IMG/VR virus record: IMGVR_UViG_3300020473_000080
Location: 1-32,864 of that record
From: a virus
Direction: 5' to 3' (one strand)
DNA: 32,864 nt
Made by a program: the position numbers and the translations under genes
Notes under the pieces: generated by a model
Databases searched by the model: none
What the model saw: only the letters and a program-made list of their open reading frames with translations
What the model was told of the DNA's origin: nothing
Shown: piece after piece, positions 13,618-32,500 of the stretch
Layout: each line of letters begins with the position of its first letter
Numbering within the stretch: the stretch's first letter is position 1

Positions 13618-15153
13618 TTAGAACTCTACTACGATCTTAATGTCCTCAATTTGGTCGCCAGCACGGGAGATTGCTCTCCTATTGTCTATGTAGATGACTT
13701 TTCCAGAGTCCTTTTTCACTTCTGGCTTGGCGTAACCAGATGTAAATGACATACCAAGATCATATTCAGTGTTGTTAATAACACGTGTTGCTTCGCCAGG
13801 TACGATTGGGAAGTTAATGTCTGGGTCGGCAGAGGTACCAGATCCAGATCCAACAACAGTATTACCTCCATCAAACACGGTCTTATTACCAGAAATTTCT
13901 GGGAAGATACCATCCACTCTGTTCTGGAAATATTTCAGAACCTTAGTTGTGCTATTCCAAGAAACAACACGTCCTCTAGCAGTCACCTGTTGACCACCAA
14001 TAGTACGTGTTTGTGTAATAATTTCATCAGTATTAAATGAACCTGTGAAATCTGGAGAAAAAATCACAGCATTAGCAGCAGACAAAGTAATAGCGTCTGC
14101 CAATTCTTCGGTACCGTACTTACTTGGATTTAATACTAATCCAATACGACGGTAATCATTATCAGTTGGGAAGTCACCTGATCCTTCATCGTAGGTAAAC
14201 TTCGTGTTAATCATCACTCGGAAACCTCCAAGTTCGATTGCAGGGTTAGATCCGTGACCACCTTTAGGAGGGATGATAACGTCAATAGCACCACCACTAC
14301 CAGTACCTGCACCAATACCATTGATTTCATCAATGATAACTTTACCAAAGGAGTAATTAGATCCTCCAGAGGTTACAGTAGCACTAACAATGCGACCACC
14401 GTCCACCACGACACTAATCCTACCGCCCGTGCCATCTCCCTTGATCGGGATATTTTCGTACGTTCCATTGTTATATCCAGAACCAGATGATTGTATAACC
14501 ACTGTATCTATCTCACCACCAACAGCGTCAGATTGTACAGCAGTATCTTGTAACACAGGCATATAATCGCCTGAGAAGAATTTCAAGACCTGTCCAACGG
14601 GGATAGTAAACATATACTTCCAACGATAACCGTCGGCGGTAGTAATAATAGAAGTACTAGTTCCAGTAGGTTCAACCGTTGAAGGTTTTCCGTTAGGGTC
14701 AGAGGGTGAAGTTCCATTGTATATACATTTGTAAGCTTGATACGATGAGTTGACAACATAGAAGTCAGCATCATATAGCTTAGTAGCACCAGAAGATGCA
14801 GTCTTACTGGATGAATAATCGTGACGATACATATCGTACACATAACCCAAACCACCAGTAGTTTGTTCTGGAGGTATCCAGTCAATACGACGTATGACCT
14901 GAACAGAGTCGTTTGCTAAGACTCTCTTCATAGAGATCATATCATCGTAACTATCTGAGAATTCTTGGAAAGAATCGACAGGAGTTGGAGGGTTATTCTC
15001 ATTATCCCATTCTTGTGGTCTTCCAATAAAAACATACAGACGATCACGATTTGCACCAGCAGCTATATCGCTCTGGTTCTTATCGGGACCTTCTAGCGAT
15101 TTGATGAATTTTTCTGCGGTAAAAATCCTAAATTGATCGGTTAGTAATGCCAT
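13618..15153 (-). CDS. gp8: Baseplate wedge subunit gp8 (T4 gp8 homologue, enlarged)
   Basis: This is a structural subunit of the baseplate wedge. The C-terminus (residues 483-511, SGKVIYIDNRRAI then DQIEDIKIVVEF) matches the pattern at the T4 gp8 end (SGEMIYMENRPPI, DQTEEINILFTF) as I recall that sequence. Other shared features are YVFIGRPQEWD near residues 40-50, PPTPVDS near 55-61, RRIDW near 88-92, YKCIYNGT near 141 and DGYRWKYMFTIP at 174-185, matching DGYVWEYLFEIP. At 511 residues it is clearly longer than T4 gp8 (334). The extra length includes a G-x-G-Y type beta insertion at about 215-300 and a second at about 365-460 with the ARGRVVSWNSTTK pattern, also found in neighbouring proteins. 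The ATG at 15153 is preceded by AAGGAAGG and a TATAAATA late promoter, which fixes the start. Confidence 0.9.
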   Translation of the reverse strand: MALLTDQFRIFTAEKFIKSLEGPDKNQSDIAAGANRDRLYVFIGRPQEWDNENNPPTPVDSFQEFSDSYDDMISMKRVLANDSVQVIRRIDWIPPEQTTGGLGYVYDMYRHDYSSSKTASSGATKLYDADFYVVNSSYQAYKCIYNGTSPSDPNGKPSTVEPTGTSTSIITTADGYRWKYMFTIPVGQVLKFFSGDYMPVLQDTAVQSDAVGGEIDTVVIQSSGSGYNNGTYENIPIKGDGTGGRISVVVDGGRIVSATVTSGGSNYSFGKVIIDEINGIGAGTGSGGAIDVIIPPKGGHGSNPAIELGGFRVMINTKFTYDEGSGDFPTDNDYRRIGLVLNPSKYGTEELADAITLSAANAVIFSPDFTGSFNTDEIITQTRTIGGQQVTARGRVVSWNSTTKVLKYFQNRVDGIFPEISGNKTVFDGGNTVVGSGSGTSADPDINFPIVPGEATRVINNTEYDLGMSFTSGYAKPEVKKDSGKVIYIDNRRAISRAGDQIEDIKIVVEF

Positions 15154-15188: not shown

Positions 15189-17072
15189 TTAATCAGGCTC
15201 GTTTCGAACTGCTGTAGGATACTCAATTCTTAGAGTAGTTCCTATTGCACCAGTACCAGAACCAGTGATTAATTCATTTGAATTCCATAGGGAATTACCA
15301 TTATTTTCAACTACAGAACCAACAGTAAGTTTCTTGGTCTGACTATCCCAAGCAGTTACTGTTGCTGTAATTCCTGTAATAGATCCTGTTACAGTTTCAC
15401 CTACAGAATAGTATTGAGCAGCACTTTGATCAAGACTACGGAACGTAAATTCAACTGTAGCAACGTGAGCATCACCATCACCTAATGCACCAGCAACTGA
15501 TACTGTAGGAGATAGTGAAGGAACAGAACCATCAGTCATTTGGTCACCAACTGCAAACAAAGTTGTGTTAGTACCACCAAGAGTCTCTTCTATACCATAA
15601 AGTGATATTGCTATACCACCATCTAGATTTATTTCACCTTCATAATCTGTACCTGTATTAATTAGGTCAGGGATACCATCACCTGCACCATCTAATTCAG
15701 CGATATCTTCGAATGCTTTATCAGGTATCTCATTAAATGGATCTGTCAAAGTAACAATGTCGTTTCCAGTTGAATCGACAAGGTTGTGTGGAGCAACACC
15801 AGTTTGAGTTGCAGCTGCAACACCACCAGTAAAGTCAATTACCTGTGATTTAACTTGTGAGCTACCACCATCAATGAATGCTAATTCATCAACTTCAAAT
15901 ACAAGATACAATGAACGAGTTTCTGCAACCCAGTCATAAACACGAGCAACTTTGTTACTTGAACTTTCATTAGTTCTTACAACTCTGTCACCAACGTTAA
16001 AGTTATATCCTGACGTACCATCACTATAATTTGCAAGACTATCTAAGACAACTTTCTGATCATACCTAAAATTAAGTGCACGATCACAACCAGTAAAGGA
16101 TGTTAGTGTCTTACCTGTATAACGAATAACTTCCCTACCAAGTAGGATCTTACCTGAGCCTGGATAGGGAGTAGTTGTCTGTACAAATACAGTCTGATCG
16201 TTCTCTCCAACATCTTGAAGAAGACCTGTTATGTCATATAATGTCGAGTTAAATGACTGTCTATTTCTAGACTCTTTTGTGAGATCAGTATTTCTAGTGA
16301 ATAGAACTTGAGGATCACTGGAATAACCACCACCAGGATTGGTAACAGCAATATTAGTAATAGCACCCAGATCAACTGTTGCTACTGCTTTACCTCCAGA
16401 TCCACCACCTCCATTCAATAAAATTACAGGTGGAGTTTCATAGAACTCACCTTGATTTGATACGTTAATAGATTTAACAATACCAAATTCATCAACCTCA
16501 GTAACACCAGTAGCACCTTGTCCACCGCCACCAGAAATAATAATGTTAACATCACCTATTTCATAACTGGCACCAGCTTGTTCTAATGACAAACCAGTTA
16601 TCAAACCAGTTACAGGACGTAGTTCAGCACCTGATCCACCACCACCTTTTATATCAGCAGTAGTAGCATCAGAGAAGTAATTGTCTCCGTTAGATAAAAC
16701 TTGAATATATTGTAACGAACCAGCTGGAGCAGTTAAATTACCATTAATATCATATTGATCTTCTTCCCATAATATTGCTTTTGCCTTAGCACCGTGTCCA
16801 TCACCAACAGTTTCTATATCAATTCTAAATGGATCATACCCTTCACCAGGATCTAAAACCTTAACAGCAGCGATCTGTCCTCCTGTAGAAATAATAGGCT
16901 CAAGAATAGCCTCCCTAATGGGAGTACCACATCCTGCGATCTTTAGTTGAGGTGGATCAGAGCTGTTATAGCCGTTACCACCATCCACCACATAAACATC
17001 TCGAACGCCAAAAATAGAGTTAAAGAGTGGTTCAATTTTTGCTCCTGATCCTGGGACAGTTCTTGTTGCCAT
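15189..17072 (-). CDS. Virion structural protein with G-x-G-Y beta repeats, 627 residues
   Basis: Residues about 20-260 are roughly six repeats of a beta unit with the pattern V-x-x-G-x-G-Y-x-x-x-P-x-V-x-I, then GGGGSGA, then a short strand, as in GGGGQGATG and GGGGSGGKA; such repeats are common in large cyanophage baseplate proteins. Residues about 283-335 follow the widespread phage motif TPYPGSGKILLGREVIRYTG with FTGCDRALN. The C-terminal part includes YYSVGETVTGSITG and AWDSQTKKL, a beta module also seen in gp8 and in the DUF4815-type protein. The ATG at 17072 follows the previous stop after only one extra in-frame TAA codon, with a poor Shine-Dalgarno site, so translation is probably coupled. 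No T4 homologue is recognised; its place directly upstream of gp8 fits a baseplate component. Confidence 0.85.
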   Translation of the reverse strand: MATRTVPGSGAKIEPLFNSIFGVRDVYVVDGGNGYNSSDPPQLKIAGCGTPIREAILEPIISTGGQIAAVKVLDPGEGYDPFRIDIETVGDGHGAKAKAILWEEDQYDINGNLTAPAGSLQYIQVLSNGDNYFSDATTADIKGGGGSGAELRPVTGLITGLSLEQAGASYEIGDVNIIISGGGGQGATGVTEVDEFGIVKSINVSNQGEFYETPPVILLNGGGGSGGKAVATVDLGAITNIAVTNPGGGYSSDPQVLFTRNTDLTKESRNRQSFNSTLYDITGLLQDVGENDQTVFVQTTTPYPGSGKILLGREVIRYTGKTLTSFTGCDRALNFRYDQKVVLDSLANYSDGTSGYNFNVGDRVVRTNESSSNKVARVYDWVAETRSLYLVFEVDELAFIDGGSSQVKSQVIDFTGGVAAATQTGVAPHNLVDSTGNDIVTLTDPFNEIPDKAFEDIAELDGAGDGIPDLINTGTDYEGEINLDGGIAISLYGIEETLGGTNTTLFAVGDQMTDGSVPSLSPTVSVAGALGDGDAHVATVEFTFRSLDQSAAQYYSVGETVTGSITGITATVTAWDSQTKKLTVGSVVENNGNSLWNSNELITGSGTGAIGTTLRIEYPTAVRNEPD

Positions 17073-17075
17073 TTA

Positions 17076-18737
17076 TCATTTTACCGTAATTGTTCCAGCC
17101 ATATCAGAGTGTTCTGTGCACTGATAATATAAGGTATTTGGTGCATCAAGTGGAACGGTGAAAGTTTGCATACCTGTATTTGATCCACTAACACCAGTTG
17201 TATACTCTGTACCAGATAGTCCAGAAGTAGACTGTAATCTTAATGGATGTGATCCACCTGCTTGGTTGTGCAAGTCATAAGTGAATCCTCTATGGAATAC
17301 TAATCCAGCATTAGATACGTTAGATCCTAATCCAGGACCATTAACTGTATATGCACTCATTCCAGATGCAGTAAACCTATAAAGTAATGTTGGAGATGGC
17401 TTGTAGATAGTTGCATTATCGTGACCCTTAATGATAGATGCACCAGCAGGAGCATTACCTATCTGAGTCTGGAATCCACCACCAACTTCAGTGAAGTTAG
17501 TACCATCATTAGCAATATCAAAGGTACCGTTAGTACCAATCTTCATTCTCTTAGTACCAATCTTGATCTCACCATCAGCAGGGAGTTCAAGGTTACCATC
17601 AGAATCGATCTTTAATTTTCTAGTAGAAGCACCAAATCTAATTTCTCCATCAGGAACTGTTAGGTTACCAGAGGAATCCATTGCCAATTTGTGAGTAGTA
17701 CCAAATTGAATTTCAGTATCCTGATCAAGAACTAAGTTATCATTACCATCAAACTCTAGAAGCTTCTTAGAACTAGAATCTCCAAAACGTATTTTTGATC
17801 CAGTAAGTTCTAAGATACCATTATCATCAAAGAATAATTTGTTACCACTACCAAAGTCTAAATTTTGTCCACCAATATCAACTTTACCAGACTCATCTTC
17901 ACTTAGAAGACGGTTGACTGAAGTGATATGAACAGGATTTGAAACAGATAATTCTTGAGACTGGTTATCACCAACAGCAGCTACTTGGATGTAACCACGT
18001 GCTGCACCTGCTTCAGCAGTGAATGAAGTAAACTCAACCTCTGCTTTAGCACCAGTTGAATCTTCAATTTCTAATTTTGTTCCAGCCTTCATAGCAACGA
18101 AACGTAATCTAAACTTCTCTTCTTGTGTAGAATCTTCTGAAGATAATTTAGAAGCAATGGTACGAGTAGCACCAGTGTCGATACTATTAACTGTATGTGG
18201 TTGTTTCTTCTTACGTTGCATCTCCTGAGTAGTAGGCTCAGTAGATAATGCAGTATCACCCAACCAAAGTGAAGAGTTGACTAAGTAAGCATCTCTGAAA
18301 CGTAATGTAGAAGAACCCAAGTCATAAGCATTATCAGTATTAGGAAGGAAGTTCGTAGAAATAACAACCTCATCACTACCATTGTTGGTAAGATTTGTTA
18401 TTGCAGATCCACCACCTCCACCACCTTGTAGATCATCGCCTGGCTGCCAGCGAGCATTTGCAGTATTCCACTTAAGAACCTGTCCGTTAGTAACCCCGCT
18501 AACGTCCACGTCAGTAAGATTCGATGCTGCAAGTTGTCCCTCCGTAAATGTACTACCATTCCATTTAAGGACTTGGTTCGTTGAGGGTGATGCGATTGTT
18601 ATTTGAAGGTTAGTGCTATCTCCAAGGGATGCGTATAACTCATCTATAACATTATTGAGTTTAATAGCACCGTCTCGTAAGGTATCACCTGTTCCGTCAT
18701 TGGCACTTACGCCAATATTAAGGTTCTGCTTAGCCAT
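17076..18737 (-). CDS. Fibre-like structural protein with C-terminal cupredoxin-like domain, 553 residues
   Basis: The N-terminus (NIGVSANDGTGDTLRDGAIK) is a pattern often seen at the start of phage fibre or tail-associated proteins. Residues 50-100 hold two copies of a short unit with QVLKWN, followed by a Gly run at 105-110. Residues about 290-410 are five short repeats (FGSGNKLFFDDNG, FGTTHKLAMDSSGNL, FGASTRKLKIDSDGNL, IGTKRMKIGTNG), which suggest a beta-helical or shaft fold. Residues about 455-553 look like a cupredoxin: a His in GGSHPLRL (H497), then LYYQC (C540), H543 and M546, the four positions that bind copper in type-1 copper proteins. A basic patch (MQRKKKQPH, about 173-181) is unusual. 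Role inferred: virion appendage or baseplate-associated fibre. Confidence 0.85.
   Translation of the reverse strand: MAKQNLNIGVSANDGTGDTLRDGAIKLNNVIDELYASLGDSTNLQITIASPSTNQVLKWNGSTFTEGQLAASNLTDVDVSGVTNGQVLKWNTANARWQPGDDLQGGGGGGSAITNLTNNGSDEVVISTNFLPNTDNAYDLGSSTLRFRDAYLVNSSLWLGDTALSTEPTTQEMQRKKKQPHTVNSIDTGATRTIASKLSSEDSTQEEKFRLRFVAMKAGTKLEIEDSTGAKAEVEFTSFTAEAGAARGYIQVAAVGDNQSQELSVSNPVHITSVNRLLSEDESGKVDIGGQNLDFGSGNKLFFDDNGILELTGSKIRFGDSSSKKLLEFDGNDNLVLDQDTEIQFGTTHKLAMDSSGNLTVPDGEIRFGASTRKLKIDSDGNLELPADGEIKIGTKRMKIGTNGTFDIANDGTNFTEVGGGFQTQIGNAPAGASIIKGHDNATIYKPSPTLLYRFTASGMSAYTVNGPGLGSNVSNAGLVFHRGFTYDLHNQAGGSHPLRLQSTSGLSGTEYTTGVSGSNTGMQTFTVPLDAPNTLYYQCTEHSDMAGTITVK
17079..17375 (-). other. Cupredoxin-like domain of the 553-residue protein
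   Basis: This encodes residues 455-553. Strand-like segments precede GSHPLRL, and the end reads LYYQCTEHSDMAG followed by TITVK, as in the last two strands of plastocyanin-type domains. All four type-1 ligand types (H497, C540, H543, M546) are present. The C-x2-H-x2-M spacing is shorter than in plastocyanin (C-x2-H-x4-M), so copper binding is plausible but not shown. Confidence 0.6.
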
Positions 18738-18761
18738 AGTAGTGGGGTTTTTCTACAGTTT

Positions 18762-18769
18762 TATTTATG
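18762..18769 (-). promoter_or_regulatory. Possible late promoter (CATAAATA) for the 553-residue gene
   Basis: The minus strand reads CATAAATA, one base off the T4 late core, overlapping the stop codon of the upstream gene and 24 bases before the ATG at 18737. The 27-base gap here contrasts with the overlaps or 3-4-base gaps at most other boundaries, which supports a signal. The first-base mismatch makes it less certain than the other two sites. Confidence 0.5.
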
Positions 18770-20501
18770 TAAGGTCGAATTCATAATTAGTTAGGTCAAA
18801 ACGTACATCATTTCTAGTAAAGTCTGGATTGTTATTGTCTCTATCAAATGGAATAGATGTCATATCGAATTTACCAACAATACTGTCCCATTTCAGTACT
18901 GCTGAAGTATCTTCGCCACTAGTACCACCAGTGACTGTAAGGATAACAAGATTAGATGCAAGAGGGGAGTTAGATGCCTGTTGTGTTTCACCTAAAGGAC
19001 CAGTAACAATACATCTAAATCGATATCCAGTCATATATGCTTGGGCTAAGACTGAATAAGATGAGGTATTAGCACCAGTAATATTCGCCCAGGCAAAGCC
19101 TCCATCAGTTGAAACTTGCCATTGATACCCTTTAGTACCATCTTCAGGTTCAATTACGGCAATCAAACTAAACGTTTGAGTACCACCACTAGCAATAGTT
19201 GCATTAGTAGGTTGATTAGTAATGATAATACTAGGAGTAGTAGGTGCATCTCCACCTTCTCCTCCACCTTCACCACCTGATGATTCCTGTCCAATACCCT
19301 GATTTGCTGGTATATTTAGAGTTTCTTTAGAAGAAAGACCAAATATATAAGGGAATTTTGGTGTCATATAACGATTGGGAAGAACCGTTATTACATTAGT
19401 ACCCCCCATCTCTGGGTGATATAGGCACCAATAATAGAGATTTGCAGGTGCATCTTCAGGTACCGTGATCTCTACATACGCTCCTGGATCACCAGGTGTA
19501 CCAACAACAGTAACACCATCGGTATACTCAGTTCCACCTTGATGCGTTCCATCTACAGTAGATGAAAATCTAAATGGATGTGGATGATTGCTACTATCTG
19601 ATTGATCAAATCTATATGTACTTCCCTTTATAAATGTTAAGTTTGCAAATTCTACTCCATCTATAAAGTAATCACCTTGTTGTAAGGTTACCGTATAGTT
19701 TTTACTTTCTGTTTCGTCTCCCCAGAGGGTGATGAAGTAAGCAAAAGTGCCATTGGGATACTCAGGAGTATAACAAAAACGACCATTATAAACATCTAAA
19801 TGCCTTCCTACTTTATCTACATTATATTCATAATCCTCCATTAATGCACCTTTAGGAGGATTTGCTGTTGTAGTACCATATGCAGGTCTATTAACAGCAA
19901 TAGATTCTTTCATCTGATATCCAGTCTCCATTAAAACTACTGGAGAAGTATTATCCTGTGGTAAATTATATCCATAAGGACCATAAACAGGATAACCATC
20001 AAATGCAATACCTAAAATCTTAGAGTGTCCGTCAGGGTGACGCATATTGTCACCAACATACTGACTTAATCCATAATAATCATTATAAGCACCCATCACC
20101 TGATTGGTTTTCCAAGCACCTATAAACTCACCGTCAATATAATGATATTGATCATTAGCATTAGGACGACCACCAGCATCATCATCACCAGGATTGTACA
20201 TACCAAAAGCATCAGTAGCTACCCAATTAAATCCATTTGGAGGACTACCAAGAGTACCTGCAGATGGATTATTTAAAACAACTCCATTAGCACTTATTCC
20301 AACAACACCTAGTGGTAAACTACCACCTGCTTGAGTGTTAGTACCACCTCTATATGAAAAAGCGTGACTAAAAGTATAAGACTCAACATCATTAGAATTG
20401 TTTGCATTAGGGAAAGTACCCTTAGCAACGGGATGCGGTAAACCATCTCCCGTTACTGTGAGTACATCATTGCTTGGATTGTAACTACCGTTTGCTGCCA
20501 T
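18765..20501 (-). CDS. Structural protein with YHYH, cupredoxin-like and Ig-like domains, 578 residues
   Basis: Residues about 1-260 resemble the YHYH-domain family: the name motif occurs as QYHYIDG (119-121 YHY), followed by GHSKILGIAFDGYPVYGPYG at 158-177 and CYTPEYPNGTFAYFIT at 243-258, the three typical signature blocks. Residues about 286-373 look like a cupredoxin, with H306 and H308 (NHPHPFRF), C359, H362 and M365 (YYWCLYHPEMGG). A Gly/Glu linker (408-418) leads to an Ig-like domain at about 424-524, with GYQWQVSTDGG and YRFRCIVTG. The C-terminal 45 residues contain SIPFDRDNNNPDF. The ATG at 20501 overlaps the previous stop by one base (TAATG), so translation is probably coupled. It is likely a surface-exposed virion protein; biochemical activity is unknown. 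Confidence 0.85.
   Translation of the reverse strand: MAANGSYNPSNDVLTVTGDGLPHPVAKGTFPNANNSNDVESYTFSHAFSYRGGTNTQAGGSLPLGVVGISANGVVLNNPSAGTLGSPPNGFNWVATDAFGMYNPGDDDAGGRPNANDQYHYIDGEFIGAWKTNQVMGAYNDYYGLSQYVGDNMRHPDGHSKILGIAFDGYPVYGPYGYNLPQDNTSPVVLMETGYQMKESIAVNRPAYGTTTANPPKGALMEDYEYNVDKVGRHLDVYNGRFCYTPEYPNGTFAYFITLWGDETESKNYTVTLQQGDYFIDGVEFANLTFIKGSTYRFDQSDSSNHPHPFRFSSTVDGTHQGGTEYTDGVTVVGTPGDPGAYVEITVPEDAPANLYYWCLYHPEMGGTNVITVLPNRYMTPKFPYIFGLSSKETLNIPANQGIGQESSGGEGGGEGGDAPTTPSIIITNQPTNATIASGGTQTFSLIAVIEPEDGTKGYQWQVSTDGGFAWANITGANTSSYSVLAQAYMTGYRFRCIVTGPLGETQQASNSPLASNLVILTVTGGTSGEDTSAVLKWDSIVGKFDMTSIPFDRDNNNPDFTRNDVRFDLTNYEFDLT
19383..19646 (-). other. Cupredoxin-like domain of the 578-residue protein
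   Basis: This encodes residues 286-373, starting LTFIKGSTYRFDQ and ending YYWCLYHPEMGG, then a final strand. It has the same order and C-x2-H-x2-M spacing as the domain at the end of the neighbouring 553-residue protein. A candidate first ligand His is present twice (H306, H308). A Pro-rich loop (TPGDPGAY) precedes the strand TVPEDAPANLYYW. Confidence 0.62.
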
Positions 20502-23500
20502 TAGTCGTCATCAAATATTTGATCTGGGGTGAAGTTATCAACTGTGGTAGAACCTATGTTGATTGTCAGTATGGAAGATTGAGATAGGGTTGGTGTAGCA
20601 CCAAGTGATGTTAATCCGACTCTAAATTCATCTCCTCCGTCACCCTGAGTTGTAGCAGGTGTAGTATATGTTGGTGATGTAGCTCCGTTAATATTTATCC
20701 ATTCATTAGTACCGTAATCCTTCTTCTGCCACTGATAGTTAATAACTCCACCAGCAGGAGTTGTGGATGCGATTACAGTAAAGGAAGCAGTTTGACCTTG
20801 GTTAACTGTTGTGTTAACTGGTTGTGATTCAATAGTGATATATGATTCACCTTGTGCTTCAGATTCACCTTGAGGAATGTAGTTAGGATCATAAATGTCA
20901 ATACCACCGTTAACACCAGAACCTGTAGGTCCTAAGAATGTTTCATCAACTGTCGTATGAACATCTACTGAAGGTAGTACATAACCTTGACCAGCATTCT
21001 TAACATCAATACGTGCAAGACCAACAAGTGCTTTGATCTTACCACCAAAACCAGAGGAGGAAATCACATCAACTTGAGGACGTGATGTATAACCATCACC
21101 TGAATTTGTTAGAATTGCTTCAGTAATACGACCTCTCTCTATAGTTGCTAGAGCGTCTGCGTTACGTCCACGTACAGATCCTGTGTACTCGAAAGTAATT
21201 AATGAGTTAGAAGACTCAATTAGAGCAACTTCTCTTTCAAATTCCTCACCCTCGATTGCTAGTTTATCACCAGTTTCAATTGGAGGTACAACTGTTGCTG
21301 CTATAACGTCAACATCAGAACCAATGTAGGAGAATGCAACGAATGTAGAACCCGCACGAGGAACTTCAGAGAAGATAATACGTGAACCAACAAGTTCAAA
21401 ACCGATACCTGGTTCCTGTACAACACCATTTAACTGACAAATAATATTATTCTCAGGTCTGATAGTGTTAGACTGTACACCTTCAGTCAATGTTAGTGAG
21501 TAGAATACTCCACCTAACTTCAAGTTAAAGGAGTTACGTAATGAATCAAAGTCGAATGAGATGTCATCTAATTGTCTCAACTTACCTACGTAAACACCGT
21601 GGAATGTTGAATTAATTGCAGGTGCTTCAGTGAACTGAATGTTATCTGAGAATGCGGTGAATGCATTATTACCACCTGGAGGTTGTAGGATTCCATTCAC
21701 GAAGATCATCATATGACCTGCAGGATCTGGGAAGTATGCAGTACCGTTATTTTCGGTTAACTTGAAGTCCTTAGTTACACCATCAAATCCTCTGAAGTAC
21801 CTTCTTACACGACCACGTAGTGTCTTCGCAACTGAACAAGCACCTCTGAATCCATAATCACCAATAATCTGTGAGTTCTTCAGGAAGGTTCCAGCAGCAT
21901 CACCAAGATGAATGATTGCACGTAAACCAATTTGCTCAATTCTCTCAATACGTCCATATGCAGTTGTTGCGGTAATTACAACAGAAGAGATAGCGGATGT
22001 GTATACACTTGGGAAGTTAGATCCAGAAGGAATCTTAGCAAGTTGATAAGCAACATCACCAGCAATAACTGTTAAATCATCACCGATAGCAGAGAATCTA
22101 CCTTCTTCATTTGCAAGGTAAACGTACTTGTTATCAACATCGTGTTCAGTAACAACGAATGTGTGACCAACTGACTGACCTGCATTTTGAAGTTGTAGTA
22201 CATCACCAACCTTAAATGTATCATCTACACCAAAGTCAGTAATTAATGATGCATATTCAAATCTAGTAATCTCGGTAGAATGGATATACTCACCAAATCC
22301 AGGCATAATATTAAATGCCTCAACTTCAATAATTTGATCAGTAACAGAACCGTAGATAACATCTCCAACACCATAGTTACCAGTAACAGTCTCAATATCA
22401 AATGTTACACGACCTGACTGGTTATCGAGTAGAGCACCATCATTATTGCGTACGATAAGTGCATTTGCTCTACCAGAATCTTGCTTACTGAATAAGAGAT
22501 CAGTTGCAATAAATTCACCCATTCTAAAGTTAACTAATATACGCTTATGGGTAGCATCACTAACAGTACCTTGAGCACCAGATGTTAATCCTTCAATATT
22601 ATCTCCTTGTACAATGTTACCACCAGTAAGAACTAACTTAATGTAAGTAGTATTATCTGTTGCAAGGATGGTTCCTTTATTTCCTGTAGCACCAGTCTTA
22701 ACAACTTCCTCACCATTAACAAATATTTCAGGATCGCTAGTAACTGTAAGTGGTAAGTAAATGACGTTATAAAGAACCTTAGCCCAGTTATCTTGTATTC
22801 TAATAACTTCAGCATATGCACCAGTAGTATCACCGAAGAATATATCTGCAGGTTGTATACCACCAGCGATAGGTGTTGGTACATTACGCTCACCAAATGT
22901 TGATGCAGTACGTACAATACCAGTCTCATCAACTACAGATAATGTATGAACTTGACCTGCTGTTCCTGGAGATAATAATTCAATCTTATCACCATCAATG
23001 TATTCTGAAATCCATATTAGATTTTCAGTAGTATCTGGGTGAATGAAATATACTTGCTTGTCTAGTTCAGCAATAGCAGAACCTAGAACTGTGTAAGTAA
23101 CACGATCATATGCTTCGAATAAATGTCCATTAGGAGCATCAATAGAACCATCAGTATTAACCATAGTTCCAACATTAAATTGGAACTTAAGGTAAGCTGT
23201 AGGTAGAGTTGATCTATTAAGTGCAACTTCAATTAAGTGGAATAACTGCCAAACCTTATGTTGTGCTGTTTCAGTAGGACGTAGTTCTCGATTCTCATAT
23301 GGTACCTCTTGGTTATAAGGACCAGGATTATCTGCTTTTTGCTGAAGAACTTTAAGTACCATATCTTTAACAGCAGCAGTATGATACAACAGATATGTTC
23401 TGAAGATATTAGGGAACGCTATGAAGTTACCCTCGGCATCAAACCAACTGTTAACTAATTCGAGAGTTTTGATATTACCATCAGTAATTAAGTCATATAT

Positions 23501-26500
23501 CAATGCTTTACGGATATTAGTTGAGAATGATTCGTCTCCTGTATATCCACCATAATTTTGCATAGTCTTGAAGTATGACTCACGATCAATATATTGATCA
23601 TTAAACCATATCAATCTTGCTGCCTGACGATACATCTCAGGTGCACGACCAAGTGTCATATTAATCATATCTGCTAATGTATTAGCAGCAGATACTACGT
23701 TGTAACAAATACCACCACCAGATTGTAATGTATTATTTTGAAGTGGAGCCTGTCTAAAGACAGATTGATTAGTAAACCAATTACCATTACCTTGAGCAGC
23801 AGTGTCAATAACATTAAGTGGATAATTAAACAACTGTATTATTTGAGATCCAACAACAGCACACTCACCATTACCAGCTTGATCATAAGTTATTGTTAAA
23901 TCACGAATTGCAGCACGTTCACCTGTTAGTGGCCATTCACCTGGTAGAGTTCTATTAATACCAGCAATGTATGCTTCAGGATTACTTACACCAGAACCAA
24001 ACAGATTGATAGGAATATTCATCAATGTAGTAATAGCAGATGCTTCATTGCTACAACGTGCAGCACCACCACCTGTATAAGAGGTAACAGCATTACTCTG
24101 AGAACTAATGAAGGTATGAGCATAAGCACCACCAGTGTGTACTGCTGCTCTTCTAATTCCGTGAGGAGTAGCACTCACAAATGTATGAGTTGTGGTGTTA
24201 GTAGAAGGAGCAGATGCTAGAACCTGTACAGTAAATGTGTCAGTTGTGACGTTAGAAATAGTCATAACTCTATTACTGAACGGATCAGTTGGACGTGGAT
24301 ATGGGTGCTCAGTATTGTTACTATCTTCTAAGCAAGTAAAGACTAATGAATAATCATCAAGGATAATTCCATCACCATTACTCCATCCGTGATCAGGAAC
24401 TGTAACTGTCATAATACCTGTAGCAGGTAAGTATGAAGCATTAGTTACTGTCTTCTTAGTTGGTCCTTCAAATACGTGTGTATAAATTCCACCACTACGT
24501 ATTGCCATTCCCTTAGAACTTACATACTTGTGCTCATAAACTCCACCACCAAGTACTTGAGGTTTGGTGATTGAATTAGCAGCAGCAGACTGGAATACGT
24601 GAGTTGTAGTGTTTGTAGAAGGAGTTACATCTAGTACCTTCACATCAAATGTGTTAGTAGTTACATTAGAAATGCGAAGCATTCTTCCAGATGCAGGGTC
24701 ACCAGGACGAGGATAAGCGTGATCTGATCCTTGACCATCTTGATCACAACGGAATGTTACTGCATTATCAGCAAGATAAATGTACTCACCTTCATAGAAC
24801 TTATGGGCATCAGCGAATGATAGTGTCATAACACCTGTTGTTGGGTTGTATGCAGCACTGCTAGGTGTCCAAGTTGTCTGTTGATTGACGAAGTTATGAG
24901 TTGTAGTGTTAGAAGAAATACCAACGTTAATTGAAATTGTTCCATCAAGATGATGAATACCATTAGAAGTAGCAGATACAAACTGATGAACTGTCTTATC
25001 AAGATTAGCGTGTCCTACATATACATCAAAATCGTTTGTACCTACATTAGAAATTGGTAGATACTCATCATATGAAGGATCATTTTCTCTTGGATATGAG
25101 TGAAGTGTTTCATTATCATCTCTAGCACAAGTAAATGTGATGGAATTTTCAGCCATCTTAATACTATCTCGTGCAACTTCAAGTCCATCAGCAGTTGCAG
25201 ATACAAATGTATGAGCAGTCTGGTTAGAAATTGGACCTCTACCGAAGAAATTACCAACGTTAACTTCAAATGTATTGGTACTTGCGTTAGTAACAACTAA
25301 GAAACGTTGAGATGCAGGATCACTTGATCTTGGATAAGTATGGTTTGTAGCATTACTATCCTGAGCACAAGTGAATGTTAAAGAGTTATCAGCAATTCTT
25401 ACTCTGTCACCATTCTTCATTCCGTGAGCAGCACTTGTTATTCTTAACATACTGGTTGTCACATCGTAAGTAGCACCAGTTACTGTCTTTTGGAGAGAGG
25501 TAGTAAACCCGTGATTCGGTATGGTGAGATTCATCACACCAGTATTGGGGTTATACTTAGCATTGGTTACAGTATGAGTAGTGTATCCAACTTGATCAAT
25601 GTTAATTCCACGCTGATAGAATGGATCCTTCTTATGAGTCATTGCAGTAGTGCTTATACCAGTATTGGTATGTGTGTAAATACCACCACCTCTGATTGCA
25701 GATCTTGTTATGCAATTAGCAGTACAAGACTTAAAGATATGTGTTGAAGTATTTGTAGAAGGTGCAGTCTCAAGAACCTTAACATTGAAGGTATCCTGAG
25801 TAACAGTATCAATTACCATCCACTTATCCCAGAATGGATCTGTTCTTCTTGGATAAACGTGATCACTAGCGTGACTATCTTTGTCACAAGTGAATGTAAG
25901 TGAGTTCTCAGCAATCTTGATCATATCACCATCGTTATAACCGTGATTAGCAATAGTCACAGTCATAACACCTGTATTAGGATTGTAGTTAATATCAGTT
26001 GGTGTCTTACCTACTTGCTGTACAAATTGATGAGTTGTAGTGTTTGTAGAAGGTTGTGAAGCAAGAACCTGTACAGAAATTGTAGTAGGTGTTGTTGCAA
26101 TAATAGGAACAGATGTCTGATAAGTAGGATCTCCTAAACGTGGATAGGTATGATCTGTTTGATAGTTATCCTGAGCACATCTGAAGGTTAATGAATTAGC
26201 AGCAATACGAATCTTATGATCAGTAGTAAATTCGTGCTCACCAATCTCCATCTCCATAACACCCGAAGTTGGGTTGTAACTTACAGTGATAGGTTCAAAT
26301 CCTGTGGTTGGTGTTTTACCAACTTGAACTTTAAATGTATTTGCCTGTACATCCTCGACTGGTAACCAATTACCGTAAGTAGGATCAGTAGCACGTGGAT
26401 ATGTGTGGCTGGAACCATTGTTATCCATTGTGCAAGTAAATGTAAATGCATTTAACTCAAACTTAACGAAGTCTCCATTAGAGTATCCGTGGTTGTTCAT

Positions 26501-29500
26501 TGTTAGAAGCATATATCCAGTTTCAGGATCATATGATACTGCTGTAGGTGCAGTTACTACAGTATTTGCTCTTGGATAAGTATGATTTGTCTGGTTGCTA
26601 TCTAATCCACAAGTAAATGTTAATGAATCAGGTGAAATTCTAATATTGTCGTGCCTGTTAAAGTAATGGTTACCTATACCAAGTACCATTGTACCTGTAA
26701 TTGGGTTGAAGTTAGCAGTAGAAACTGTATGTCCAGTTGAAGGAGTAGCACCAACGTTAACAGTAACCCATCCAGTCTGTTCTTTTAATCCACCAGCAGT
26801 AGCACCAACAAATGTATGAGCAAAGTTACCACCAGCAGAGATACCAACATTAACAGTGAATGTATTGGCATCAGGTGTTGATAGAACTTCTAACCAATGT
26901 CCTGCTTCTGGATCATCTGCTCTTGGATATGTGTGGTTAGAAGCGTTGCTATCCTTAGTACAATTAAATGTAATTGAATTAAGATCAAACTTAACTAAAG
27001 TAGGAGCAACGTGAATACTATTACTATTAGATGCTTCGAATACGTGAATACTCTGATCAGAGATAGCACCACCTAAAGCATTTGATCCAACATTAACTGT
27101 GAATCTATTTCTAGATGCTTTCTTAACTATTAAGTAAGTTCCTGATGCAGGGTCAGTTGATCTTGGATATGGGTGAGTTGAACTGTATTGGTCTTTAGAA
27201 CATCTGAATGTAACAGCACCATCATCCATCATTACACTATCACCAACAGCAAGTTTATTGTCTGCAGAATAAACTTCTAAATCACCTGTTGCTGGATCAA
27301 ACTTAGCAAAGGTTGGTGATATTGTACGCTTAGACTGGAATCCGTGACTATTAATAGTTGCAGTTAATACACCACTTGTAGGAGTATAAGTTGCACCAGT
27401 AATAGTATGAGAGTTAGAACTTGACTCTTTTATTTTTAAAGCAGTGTTTCTAGCAGGGTCAGTTAGACGTGGATAAACGTGCTCTGAAGCGTGACTATCC
27501 ATATCACAGGTGAATGTTAATGCTTCATCTGCAATCTTAATAGTAGTACCATCGATTAACTTATGAGCACCAACCTTAATCATCATATCGCCAGTTTCAC
27601 CATCATAATTAGCATCACCAACGCTATAGAATACAGCAGGTGTTGTACCAACGTTAACAGTAACAGAACCAGATTCTAGTTCTACACCATCATCCTCAGC
27701 AGAAATAAACTTATGACTGTAATTACCACCAGTAGTTACACAATTATTTGTAGCAGATATAAATGTATGCTGAGTTACGTTAGTAGATGGAACAACTGGT
27801 AAAACGTTTAAAGTAATAGAAGTAGCAGTTGTACCTGTAATTTCTAAAGAGTTACCATATACAGGGTCTTTAGATTTAATAATACAGTTAGTTTCAGCAC
27901 GAACGAATGTGTGAGTGTAGTTACCACCTGTTGTTATACAAGCAGGTACTGCTTCCTTAAAGATATGAGCAGTTGTATTAGAAGAGATACCAACATTAAC
28001 TGTAATAGTATTATCCTTTTTAATAATTCCGTTAGATAGACCAGAAACAAATGTGTGAGTTGTAGTATTTGAAGATGGAATAGCATCTAATACTTGTACA
28101 CTAAATGTAGTTGCATTTGGAACAGTACTAACTCTAATCCACTTATCACTAATTGGATCAGTTGCTCTTGGATAAGCGTGGTTAGAATTATTACTATCTT
28201 CTAAGCAAGTAAAGGTTACTGCACCATCTCTTAACTTAACATAATCTCCAACAACTAATCCGTGATTAGCAGATGTTGTTACCTCAAGAATACCTGTAGT
28301 TCCACTGTAAGTAGTACCACTCGCAGCAGTCATTGGAGTACCTTCGTACTTAATGTTAACTGATGAATCGTATGTTTGGTCTTTCTTAGCAGTTAGAGAA
28401 CCAGCAGTTGAAGAAACATAAGCGTGTGTGTAAATACCACCAGCTCTTACAACACATCTCTCAATACTATTAGCAACAGCACTTACAAAGTTGTGAGTTG
28501 TAGTATTGGTTGAAGGTACATTCTCTAGAACTTGAATACTAAAGGTATTAGCATCAATGTATGTGATAGGAATAAACTTATTAGATACAGGATCTTTTGG
28601 TCTTGGATATGAGTGATTAGTTTGATCACTATCTTGACCACAAGTAAAGGTTACAAAGTTATCATCAACTTTAATATGATCTCCATTTACCATACCGTGT
28701 CCAGTAACAGTAAGAGACATAACACCTGTTGATGGGTTATATGATGCTCCAGTTGGAGTTAACTTAGTAGGAGCCTGCCAAGTATGAGCAGTTGTGTTAG
28801 TAGATGGTTGCGAACTTAGAACCTGAACTGTAATTGTGTCTGCTGTAGTCTGAGTAATTGCACAAGCAGTATCATAGAATGGGTCATTCTGAGTAGCACC
28901 ACCTTGACCTGAAGCACGAGGATATGAGTGATCAGTAGCATAGTTATCAAAGGCACATTTGAATGTAAGTGAATTCTGAGAGAACCTTACAGATTGACCA
29001 ACAGATAAATTATGTCCCTGTCCAATGGTCAATGTCATTAAACCTGTTGTTGGATTGTAATCAACCATTGTTGGAGCAAATCCAACAGTAGGAGTCTTAC
29101 CAACATTAACAGTAAATGTTGTATTACCAGTTACATCAATCTCTAACCACTTACCAGATGCAGGGTCAGTTGATCTTGGATATGGATGGTTAGAACCATT
29201 ACCGTCCATAGAACAAGTAAATGTAATAGCACCATCAGCAAACTTAACTTTGTCACCATCCTGAAGACCGTGATTAGCAGCAGTTGTAACGGTCATTATT
29301 CCTGTTTCAGGATCATAAGAACCGTTATTAATGTCAGATACTGTATAAGTTGTATTTCTAGGATAAGGGTGAAGAGTTTGATGACTATCTTGTGCACAAG
29401 TAAATGTAAGACCACCTTCAGCAATCTTAAGTGCAGTTCCTGCAGTAAGACTATGATTACCAATGGTCATCTTCATATCACCAGTAGTAGGGGTGTAATC

Positions 29501-32500
29501 CACTGCTGTTGGTGTGAAACTTACTTTAGGTGATTCACCAACTTTAAATGTAAATGTATTTGTAGATACTGCTTCAACTCTCATCCAAGAATCAGCTGCA
29601 GGGTCATCTTGTCTTGGATATGGATGCTCAGAAGCATTTCCGTCCATATCACAAGTCATCACAATTCCGTTCTTCTCAACGTGAACCATTTCACCAACTT
29701 TGAATCCGTGGTTAGCAACAGTAACAGTTAAGTGACCATTAACAGGATTGTAAGAAGCATCAGTTGGAGTAACAGTAGTTGTTTGAGCTCTTGGATATGT
29801 GTGGAAGGTAGCATCATCATCTTCCTTACAAGTAAATGTTAAGGAGTTAGGTGCTAACTTAATATGAGTACCAGTTGTTAAACCGTGTACACCAAGTACA
29901 AGTTCTAAACCACCTGTATCAGGATCATAATTTGCTTGAGATGGTGTGAAGTATTTGATAGGAGTCTTACCAATACTCATCTCAAAAGTATTCTTAGTTA
30001 CGTTTGAGATTGGTAGGAAACGTCCACTAGCAGGATCAGACAGTCTTGGATATGTTTTCTTGCTGTAATGCTCATCCATATCACAAGTAAATGTCATAGA
30101 ATCGTTAGCGAGTCTAATCTTGTCACCATTCTTAAATCCGTGATTAGGAACGGTAACATTCAACATACCAGTAACAGGGTTGAAGTCTGCCCAAGTTGCT
30201 GTATGGTGAGTTGTTCCAACTGAAACGATATCTAATGCTTTATCAACTGCTGGATCAGTAGCACGAGGATACTTATGAACAGATCTATAGTTATCCTGAG
30301 AACAACGATAATTTAATTCATCCTGAAGAATCTTAAGTGTTTGACCTTCTCTTAAACTATGAGATCCAATATCAAGAGTTAATAGACCTGTTTCAGGATC
30401 ATAAGTAGAATCCTTAGCATCAAAGTTAACTCTCTGTGTTATACCAACATTGACTGTAATATCGTTACCACTTACGTTAGTTACGGGTAGTAAAGCAACA
30501 GCTGCTGGGTCGGAAACTCTTGGATAAGTATGTTGAGTCTGATGATCATCTTGATCACAAGTGAATACAAGTGAATTTGTATTAATTCTAATTGTATCGT
30601 TAGTAGTTACATTGTGTGATGCACCTAAAGTTAAGACTAAATCACCAGTTGCAGGATCATAAGTTGCTGCTGTCGGAGTATGTTGACCAGCTGCAGTTTG
30701 TTGATCAATAGTAATTTCATCATCATATACTGGATCACCTTCTGTATAACCATTAGTAGCAACTAACTGTTGTCTCATTACTTGAATAGCAATATCTCTT
30801 GCTTGTTCAAATACATACTTAACTTCATTTGGTTGACCATTGATATGCTGAACTGCATTAGAATCAGTAACATAGAACTCAGTGGCATACCATATCTTAT
30901 TATTACCACCGTGTGCTAAGTTGAATATCAATGCTTCTAAGATATCAACACAGTCATCAACACAGGACTGATAACCATATCCACCAAATCCTAATGATGG
31001 GTACTGAGAAACACCACGACCAACAGCAGTAGAAGCAATAAATCTTAAGTTATTTTTAATTTCATCAGCAGCGTTATATGCCTTATTACCAGACTCATTA
31101 TTATCATAATCACCACGTGCTGCACCACCGCCACCTTGGTTACCACCTTGACCACCGCCACCTCCACCGAAGCCACCACCGCCACCTTGACCGCCACCAG
31201 CTCCACCGCCTGCAGAATAATCAGGGTAGGGATTAAACCCTAACTTGTTTTGGATCGCCAAAGCAGACATATCCCTAGCCATCTTCATAGCAAAGGCAGT
31301 TTCTTCAGTCTCATCAGTAACGTGCTTCAGTCCATTCTCAGTATTCAGATATAACATCGCTGCATCATAAGTTGCAGAGTTAGAATTGAATCTAAGGTCG
31401 TGAATGATAGCTTCGATAACGTCAACAATATCATCTTCACAATGATTCTTACCACCTTTAACACTGAAGTGATAATGTTTAAATGCAGAACACTTAAGCA
31501 TAAGATCAACTGCTTCACCTGCAATAGTACGCTTGTTAGTTTCAAGCATATCAGCAGCATCTAATGCTCTTTGAGAACCTGCATAGATTTGAGGATCGTG
31601 TAAGAAGGTAGGTTCAGTTGCCTGATCCTTACGGAATGCAGCGAAATCTGTATATTGGAATTGGAAGAAGTCGTCAATAGTTTGAGCATTTGTACCAGCA
31701 ATATTTGCAAGGTTTTCACTACGTCCAACTAAAGCATTCTGTAGTGCCTTCTCCATCAACATCTTAGAGTAACCAATTGCATCAAGCATTGGAAGTAATT
31801 CCTCTTCCACTTGAATAACCTTACCTGAAGAATCTAAGTATTGATCAATAATACCTTGAACGTTAGCATTACCACCAGTTAATAGGTCACCAGCAATAGC
31901 AGGTATGATGTGATCTCTAAGGTCACGAACACACTTCTCACGACCTGGAGTACCACCAGGAATGTCAAACTTATCTTCTTGAACGAAGTTAATAGTTACG
32001 TTATACTGTTCTTCTAACCAGAAAGCAACTTCATCAGCGATACATTTACGGTTGAAGTATAGTAAATCAGCACCATCTCTAAATCTGTTACCTGTAGGAC
32101 CAAGAACTAATAATAGACTATCTACCAGATCAGTAATAAAGCTCTGTATACCAGCAGCCGCAGGAGATGAGAAGTAGTTAGGAATACGAATACGTGTTGT
32201 ATGCTCACCAGTTAAGTCATCAGCATTAGCAGTAATAACAGTATTGCAAAGTTTACCAACTTCTCTCCAAGCATAGATGGATTGAAGCAATTCTCCGTTA
32301 ACGTGTGCTAATTGTCCTTCTTGGTTAGCAAGATATCCTCTTGCAGCAACGATACTATTAAAGTTACCACCATACCTTAGATCATTAACGATAGCAGGTA
32401 TAATGTATTCATAAGTATCTCTTAAGCAAGTTTGTGTACCTTGATCTGAAGTACCAGTATCACCAGGTATCACAAAGTCAGGATACATAGCCTTCATTCT

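Follow-up and report, generated by a model that had tools for sequence, protein, structure and literature searches.

Predicted cupredoxin domains with a type-1-like ligand set in two neighboring baseplate-cluster proteins of a marine T4-like cyanophage

RESULTS

The window, by which we mean the whole stretch of DNA that was analyzed, is a 32,864-base virus fragment in which all large genes lie on the minus strand. Read along that strand, the genes encode a giant baseplate protein (20501..32815; syntenic with SZBM1_208), a virion protein of 578 amino acids (18765..20501), a gp9-like baseplate protein of 553 amino acids (17076..18737), a baseplate wedge protein of 627 amino acids (15189..17072; PHROG 708/22827, syntenic with SZBM1_205), and the gp8 baseplate wedge subunit of 511 amino acids (13618..15153; PF09215, and PHROG 438 with an E value of 4e-215), followed by two more very long open reading frames. 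The giant protein contains 18 C-x2-D...H-x-YPR repeats. Gene order in the isolates S-WAM1, P-RSM6, and S-SZBM1 is identical to that of the window, and because of this match, the phage very probably infects Prochlorococcus or Synechococcus. By the same synteny, the window is a piece of a T4-like cyanophage baseplate cluster. The 553- and 578-amino-acid frames, which the original prediction took to encode virion proteins that each carry a cupredoxin-like domain, are open where it placed them, and both lie on the minus strand.

The N-terminus of the 553-amino-acid protein matches PF07880 (T4 gp9/10; Pfam E value of 5e-11), and residues 393 to 553 match PHROG 677, “baseplate wedge tail fiber protein connector” (E value of 2e-69). 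These matches, together with a location in a baseplate cluster adjoining gp8, mark the protein as a gp9-like connector. The PF07880 N-terminus, PHROG 677, and the baseplate neighborhood with gp8 are what it shares with T4 gp9. The difference lies at the C-terminus, since T4-type gp9/gp10 structures match the protein at its N-terminus only and its C-terminus is a predicted cupredoxin (domain A; residues 445 to 553, 17079..17405, minus strand), recognized by AlphaFold2 and Foldseek. The candidate metal ligands of domain A are H497 (17247..17249), C540 (17118..17120), H543 (17109..17111), and the axial M546 (17100..17102), all encoded on the minus strand and all invariant in an alignment of 36 sequences (alignment A1). 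C540 is the sole Cys of the domain and the last residue of a strand that DSSP assigns to residues 91 to 96 of the AlphaFold2 model. In T4, the N-terminus of gp9 binds the baseplate, the long tail fiber joins the C-terminal domain coaxially, and the virion contains 18 gp9 copies (PMC3004832). Domain A stands where the T4 gp9 trimer has its C-terminal head, on which the long tail fibers of T4 are mounted. Long tail fibers are reported to be absent from S-SZBM1 and its relatives, on the basis of transmission electron microscopy for S-SZBM1 (PMC9146016); thus, a role as fiber socket may not apply in that lineage, where domain A may instead meet the cell directly.

The 578-amino-acid protein matches virion protein PHROGs and contains a YHYH domain (PF14240; Pfam E value of 7.5e-29) and an Ig-like domain that matches 9ncf. 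Between these two lies the second predicted cupredoxin (domain B; residues 262 to 377, 19371..19718, minus strand), recognized from a structure model and its PDB matches. Its ligands, placed by alignment and likewise encoded on the minus strand, are H308 (19578..19580), C359 (19425..19427), H362 (19416..19418), and M365 (19407..19409). The full His-Cys-His-Met sets are therefore present in both domains with the residues originally named, with one refinement: either H306 or H308 had been offered as the first ligand of domain B, and it is H308, the second His of NHPHPF, that occupies the invariant His column, so H306 was rejected. No cupredoxin domain besides A and B was found in the rest of the window.

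Searches with single sequences placed the domains below the cutoffs of known families. PF00127 scored 14 to 15.6 bits in Pfam against a gathering cutoff of 21.2, which we treat as a hint, and the best NCBIfam match of domain A was amicyanin (TIGR02657; E value of 0.0013), at 19.1 bits against a cutoff of 110.2. When the profile of 36 relatives (A1) was compared with the PDB, most of the 10 matches were copper proteins, with a best E value of 0.0019 and mostly weak E values; where an alignment with plastocyanin was printed, its His and C-x2-H columns coincided with those of the profile. AlphaFold2, supplied with A1, gave a predicted, metal-free structure of domain A with a pLDDT of 94.6 and a pTM of 0.86, and all 50 of the 50 PDB matches listed by Foldseek for this model were cupredoxin-fold copper proteins, among them rusticyanin, NirK, plastocyanin, amicyanin, and laccases. 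In a 380-residue model of the 578-amino-acid protein, the domain B region had pLDDT values of about 82 to 96 over most of its length and 72 to 77 at its end, while the rest, including the YHYH part, was poor; the best PDB matches of domain B in Foldseek were laccases, NirK, rusticyanin, and plastocyanin. TM-scores against solved cupredoxins were modest (0.4 to 0.6). In the domain A model, the first His stands directly before one of the earlier strands, the Cys closes the penultimate strand, and the His and Met that follow it belong to the last loop; strands and ligands are arranged in the same way in known cupredoxins. Judged by these models, both domains belong to the cupredoxin fold superfamily. 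An unrelated fold had been named beforehand as one of the findings that would refute the original prediction, and the fold that emerged in both neighboring proteins was the predicted one.

In A1, where mean column identity is 47%, no more than seven columns are invariant, and the ligands make up four of the seven, an agreement that goes beyond chance. Among 83 copies at ≤70% identity, the ligands are among the six most conserved columns. The H/C/H/M set is intact in 82 of 90 nonredundant copies (≤70% identity) and in all 17 of the gp9 homologues examined from isolate phages, which represent many Kyanoviridae genera. Joint loss of ligand pairs in the 83 copies gave a mean phi of 0.80, compared with 0.12 for controls of like conservation; because they are lost together, the four residues behave as one metal site. 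Conservation of the ligands in homologues, the other requirement of the original prediction, is thus seen, and where the ligands are lost they go together. Degenerate copies sit in multicopy giant proteins or in a few other proteins, and some copies in multicopy proteins have lost all ligands while keeping the sequence family, which indicates that the fold does not need the metal. One copy has Gln instead of Met, a swap also seen in stellacyanin.

We scored ligand state at every locus. Some of our scans used patterns that include ligand residues, and counts from those scans alone would be biased; the counts to rely on are those from a ligand-free viral scan and from the isolates found by tblastn. 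In the ligand-free scan, whose query lacked every ligand residue so as not to preselect intact sites, 76 of 78 distinct copies had H/C/H/M, one of the remaining two being cut by a contig end and the other lacking the His and Met. A single Cys is present in 76 of the 82 intact domains, and an intradomain disulfide was rejected on this basis. Pro follows the first His in 74 of the 82. As in a type-1 site, the domains have His, Cys, His, and Met (or Gln) in that order, with the Cys ending the penultimate strand.

The C-x2-H-x2-M spacing, which had been singled out as differing from that of familiar copper proteins, did not prove unusual. Amicyanin, with ligands H53/C92/H95/M98, has the same loop spacing as the phage domains, and the spacing can also be read in the CTLHPWM loop of copper nitrite reductase 9cck, which aligns with the phage loop. 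A new ligand spacing was accordingly rejected. With amicyanin and plastocyanin (PF00127; TIGR02657 and TIGR02656), the phage domains share the cupredoxin fold and the four type-1 ligands in the same order, but they fall below the family cutoffs, are fused into tail proteins, and have Pro after the first His, where small blue copper proteins usually have Asn or Ser. In multicopper oxidases, the type-1 His is followed by Pro, as it is here. Rusticyanin and the domains of copper nitrite reductase and multicopper oxidases are the best Foldseek matches; in contrast to these proteins, with which it shares 12 to 21% identity, the phage domain is single and small and lacks type-2/3 copper motifs. A special link to the plastocyanin of a cyanobacterial host, raised in the original prediction, did not hold up: PF00127 stayed below its cutoff, the NCBIfam plastocyanin model TIGR02656 matched neither domain A nor domain B, and none of the 40 genome loci found was cyanobacterial. 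The absence of a TIGR02656 match and of cyanobacterial loci also led us to reject a captured host plastocyanin gene (petE).

Mass spectrometry of S-SZBM1 detected SZBM1_206, a “baseplate wedge protein” of 498 amino acids, by 9 peptides (24.9% coverage) with an emPAI of 0.98, near the value of 1.37 for gp8 in the same virions (PMC9146016). SZBM1_206 is the syntenic gp9 homologue, and its sequence carries domain A with intact H/C/H/M. SZBM1_207, which occupies the position of the 578-amino-acid protein, was represented by one peptide (PMC9146016). Its sequence gave no cupredoxin match, so the virion location of domain B is indicated only by gene position and the virion-protein PHROGs. Peptides from a syntenic relative thus support a virion location for the domain A protein.

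Relatives of domain A were found by tblastn in 334 phage records and relatives of domain B in 238, essentially all of them phages of marine-type hosts (Synechococcus, Prochlorococcus, Pelagibacter, and Methylophilales) or uncultured phages. The gp8 protein of the window matches 517 records; compared with this number, domain A is frequent in relatives, though not all of them have it. The matched proteins are annotated, among other names, as baseplate connector, long tail fiber proximal subunit, and tail fiber, and many of them are tail fiber proteins; in S-TIM61, the domain is in a protein encoded two genes away from the portal. A scan of cell genomes with a further alignment (A4) found the domain in SAR86, Marinimicrobia, and MGII archaea, in ordinary chromosomal neighborhoods. 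The cellular copies are small proteins with a lipobox-like N-terminus, those of MGII lying behind a collagen-like stalk, and from these features they look like exported surface lipoproteins. Matches on Pelagibacter contigs (L190 and L192) look like phage fiber genes.

The two domains appear to have different histories. DNA identity between the window and one relative (L005) is 97 to 99% up to about residue 234 of the 578-amino-acid protein, falls to 63 to 72% over residues 267 to 360, and recovers afterwards; two others (L010 and L011) show the same drop over domain B. At the protein level, the L006 homologue is 98% identical to that of the window in the YHYH part and 64% identical in domain B, while the L010 homologue is 83% identical in the YHYH part and 93% identical in domain B, and some relatives have a YHYH protein without a cupredoxin. 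Domain A shows no such break, with identities of 85 to 100%. These patterns show that domain B is a cassette exchanged between close relatives, and domain A behaves as a part inherited with the core baseplate. That domain B is swapped while its ligands persist fits a surface-contact module. In a tree, domain A groups with gp9 domains, the S-SCSM1 proximal fiber, and the P-SCSP2 fiber (support of 0.95), and domain B groups with other YHYH-protein and pelagiphage copies (support of 0.79 to 0.92). This separation and an identity of only about 33 to 38% between A and B led us to reject a recent tandem duplication as the source of the pair.

DISCUSSION

Taken as a whole, the predicted fold, the conservation and set-wise loss of the ligands, the swapping of domain B, and the presence of a gp9 homologue in the virions of a relative lead us to favor, with a probability of roughly 60%, the view that both domains are true cupredoxins with a type-1-like site and form a copper-pinned baseplate module for docking or host contact. 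The site in each domain of ~110 amino acids would be built from a His between two strands and from a Cys-x2-His-x2-Met that ends the penultimate strand, and both domains would lie at the surface of the tail baseplate in a marine T4-like cyanophage. Each domain would take up one metal ion, probably copper, either after lysis or in the cell envelope, and the metal would pin the small beta-sandwich, making it a stable module that withstands seawater. Position and modularity suggest that domain A could be a docking head for a fiber or another partner, stabilized by copper, and that domain B could make contact with the host surface. Exposure and adhesion are also in keeping with the swapping of domain B alone, with the many tail fiber proteins that contain the domain, and with the surface-lipoprotein appearance of the cellular relatives.

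Other explanations account for parts of these data. The fold could be a mere beta-sandwich spacer or adhesin, like the Ig-like domains of phage tails, with H/C/H/M persisting as a relic or for packing. The domain does adjoin Ig-like and other modular domains, and a few copies have no ligand at all; however, few columns are as conserved as the ligands, whereas the remainder of the domain diverges, and the ligands vanish together instead of decaying one by one. If they were a relic, the gp9 sites would not all be intact, as 17 of 17 are in many Kyanoviridae genera, so we judge this explanation unlikely. We give little credence to a site that holds another metal, such as zinc or iron, or to a Cys that serves elsewhere, for example, in an intersubunit disulfide of a trimer. 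Cross-linking is possible for an exposed Cys in trimers, but a Cys conserved together with two His residues and a Met in cupredoxin order is typical of copper.

It is also quite improbable, in our estimation, that the virion is redox active, its copper sites swapping electrons with the host envelope or quenching oxidants at attachment. Electron-transfer proteins have this ligand set, and among solved folds rusticyanin, plastocyanin, and amicyanin are the nearest; yet the window shows no redox partner, the usual Asn or Ser after the first His is replaced by Pro in most copies, and some copies are internal repeats in long fibers, far from any likely partner. Type-1 copper sites bury their metal and would present it poorly to a receptor, which argues against a metal “Trojan horse” in which the virion shows copper to a metal-uptake receptor of the host. 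Domain A, moreover, is conserved rather than swapped, and no receptor is known. We therefore consider this very unlikely, even though phages exchange domain B as they do receptor-binding parts and a precedent exists in T4 gp37, whose seven irons are held by HxH motifs and form the basis of the Trojan Horse hypothesis, the iron counterpart of this idea (PMC11705849). That “Ferrojan” proposal and our domains have in common that exposed tail proteins of marine phages conserve the residues that act as metal ligands (PMC11705849); T4 gp37, however, holds iron between the His pairs of an intertwined trimer, whereas the phage domains have a mononuclear copper-type site within one domain.

The copper-pinned module that we favor is made of known parts, since its fold, its ligands, and their spacing in the loop are all familiar. 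We did not find it described that these parts serve widely as a module in virion baseplates and tail fibers: a search of the open-access literature for virions with cupredoxin, blue copper, or type-1 copper proteins returned nothing relevant, and the closest published idea is that of iron held in tail fibers by HxH motifs (PMC11705849). The domain is a recurring, unnamed tail module of marine phages that also occurs in surface lipoproteins of SAR86 and of MGII archaea, and it merits a family model of its own. Because hundreds of other marine phages have the same domain, their virions may carry copper. A bolder extension, in which marine phage virions are copper proteins with tens of type-1 sites per particle on baseplate and fibers and the copper acts in host recognition or electron exchange during attachment, is speculative, and we regard it as rather unlikely. 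Were copper bound, most T4-like cyanophages would be metalloprotein particles, with 18 sites per virion from domain A if T4 stoichiometry applies. Such binding would connect marine viruses with the chemistry of copper, much as they are connected with iron in the iron proposal, and would raise the question of how phages load the metal or use it at the host surface.

Possible further metal-binding and repeat motifs in the baseplate cluster

The 578-aa protein that contains cupredoxin domain B (positions 18765 to 20501, minus strand) also carries a YHYH domain (PF14240; residues 64 to 258), in which His46, His155, and His159 were conserved together with many Tyr and Asp residues; the predicted fold of this domain was of poor quality. 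The giant 4,104-aa open reading frame (positions 20501 to 32815, minus strand) contains 18 copies of a repeat of the form [FMI][TKR]C-x2-D-x4-6-H-x-YPR (for example, FTCDKDSHASDHVYPR) in which Cys, Asp, and His are conserved, and this repeat is possibly a further metal motif or a cross-linking motif.

Cupredoxins in other phage and cellular proteins

Single phage proteins of about 2,770 to 3,110 aa at five loci (L077, L056, L059, L062, and L066) each contained seven cupredoxin-like copies in a mixed ligand state, some copies having no ligand at all and others being intact. Several cellular loci encode exported lipoproteins that each contain a single cupredoxin belonging to this family: L176, L189, and other MGII archaeal loci, where a collagen-like stalk precedes the cupredoxin, and L193, L196, L203, and L206. 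These lipoproteins are a cellular family without a name. BFVD fold matches included A0A481YWX9, A0A481Z6J5, and other “beta-sandwich proteins” of marseillevirus- and pithovirus-like giant viruses. Finally, a structural protein of phage S-TIM61 (locus L312, positions 646 to 2103) has the same cupredoxin domain, and because its gene lies two genes from that of the portal, the domain may occur on phage heads or necks as well.
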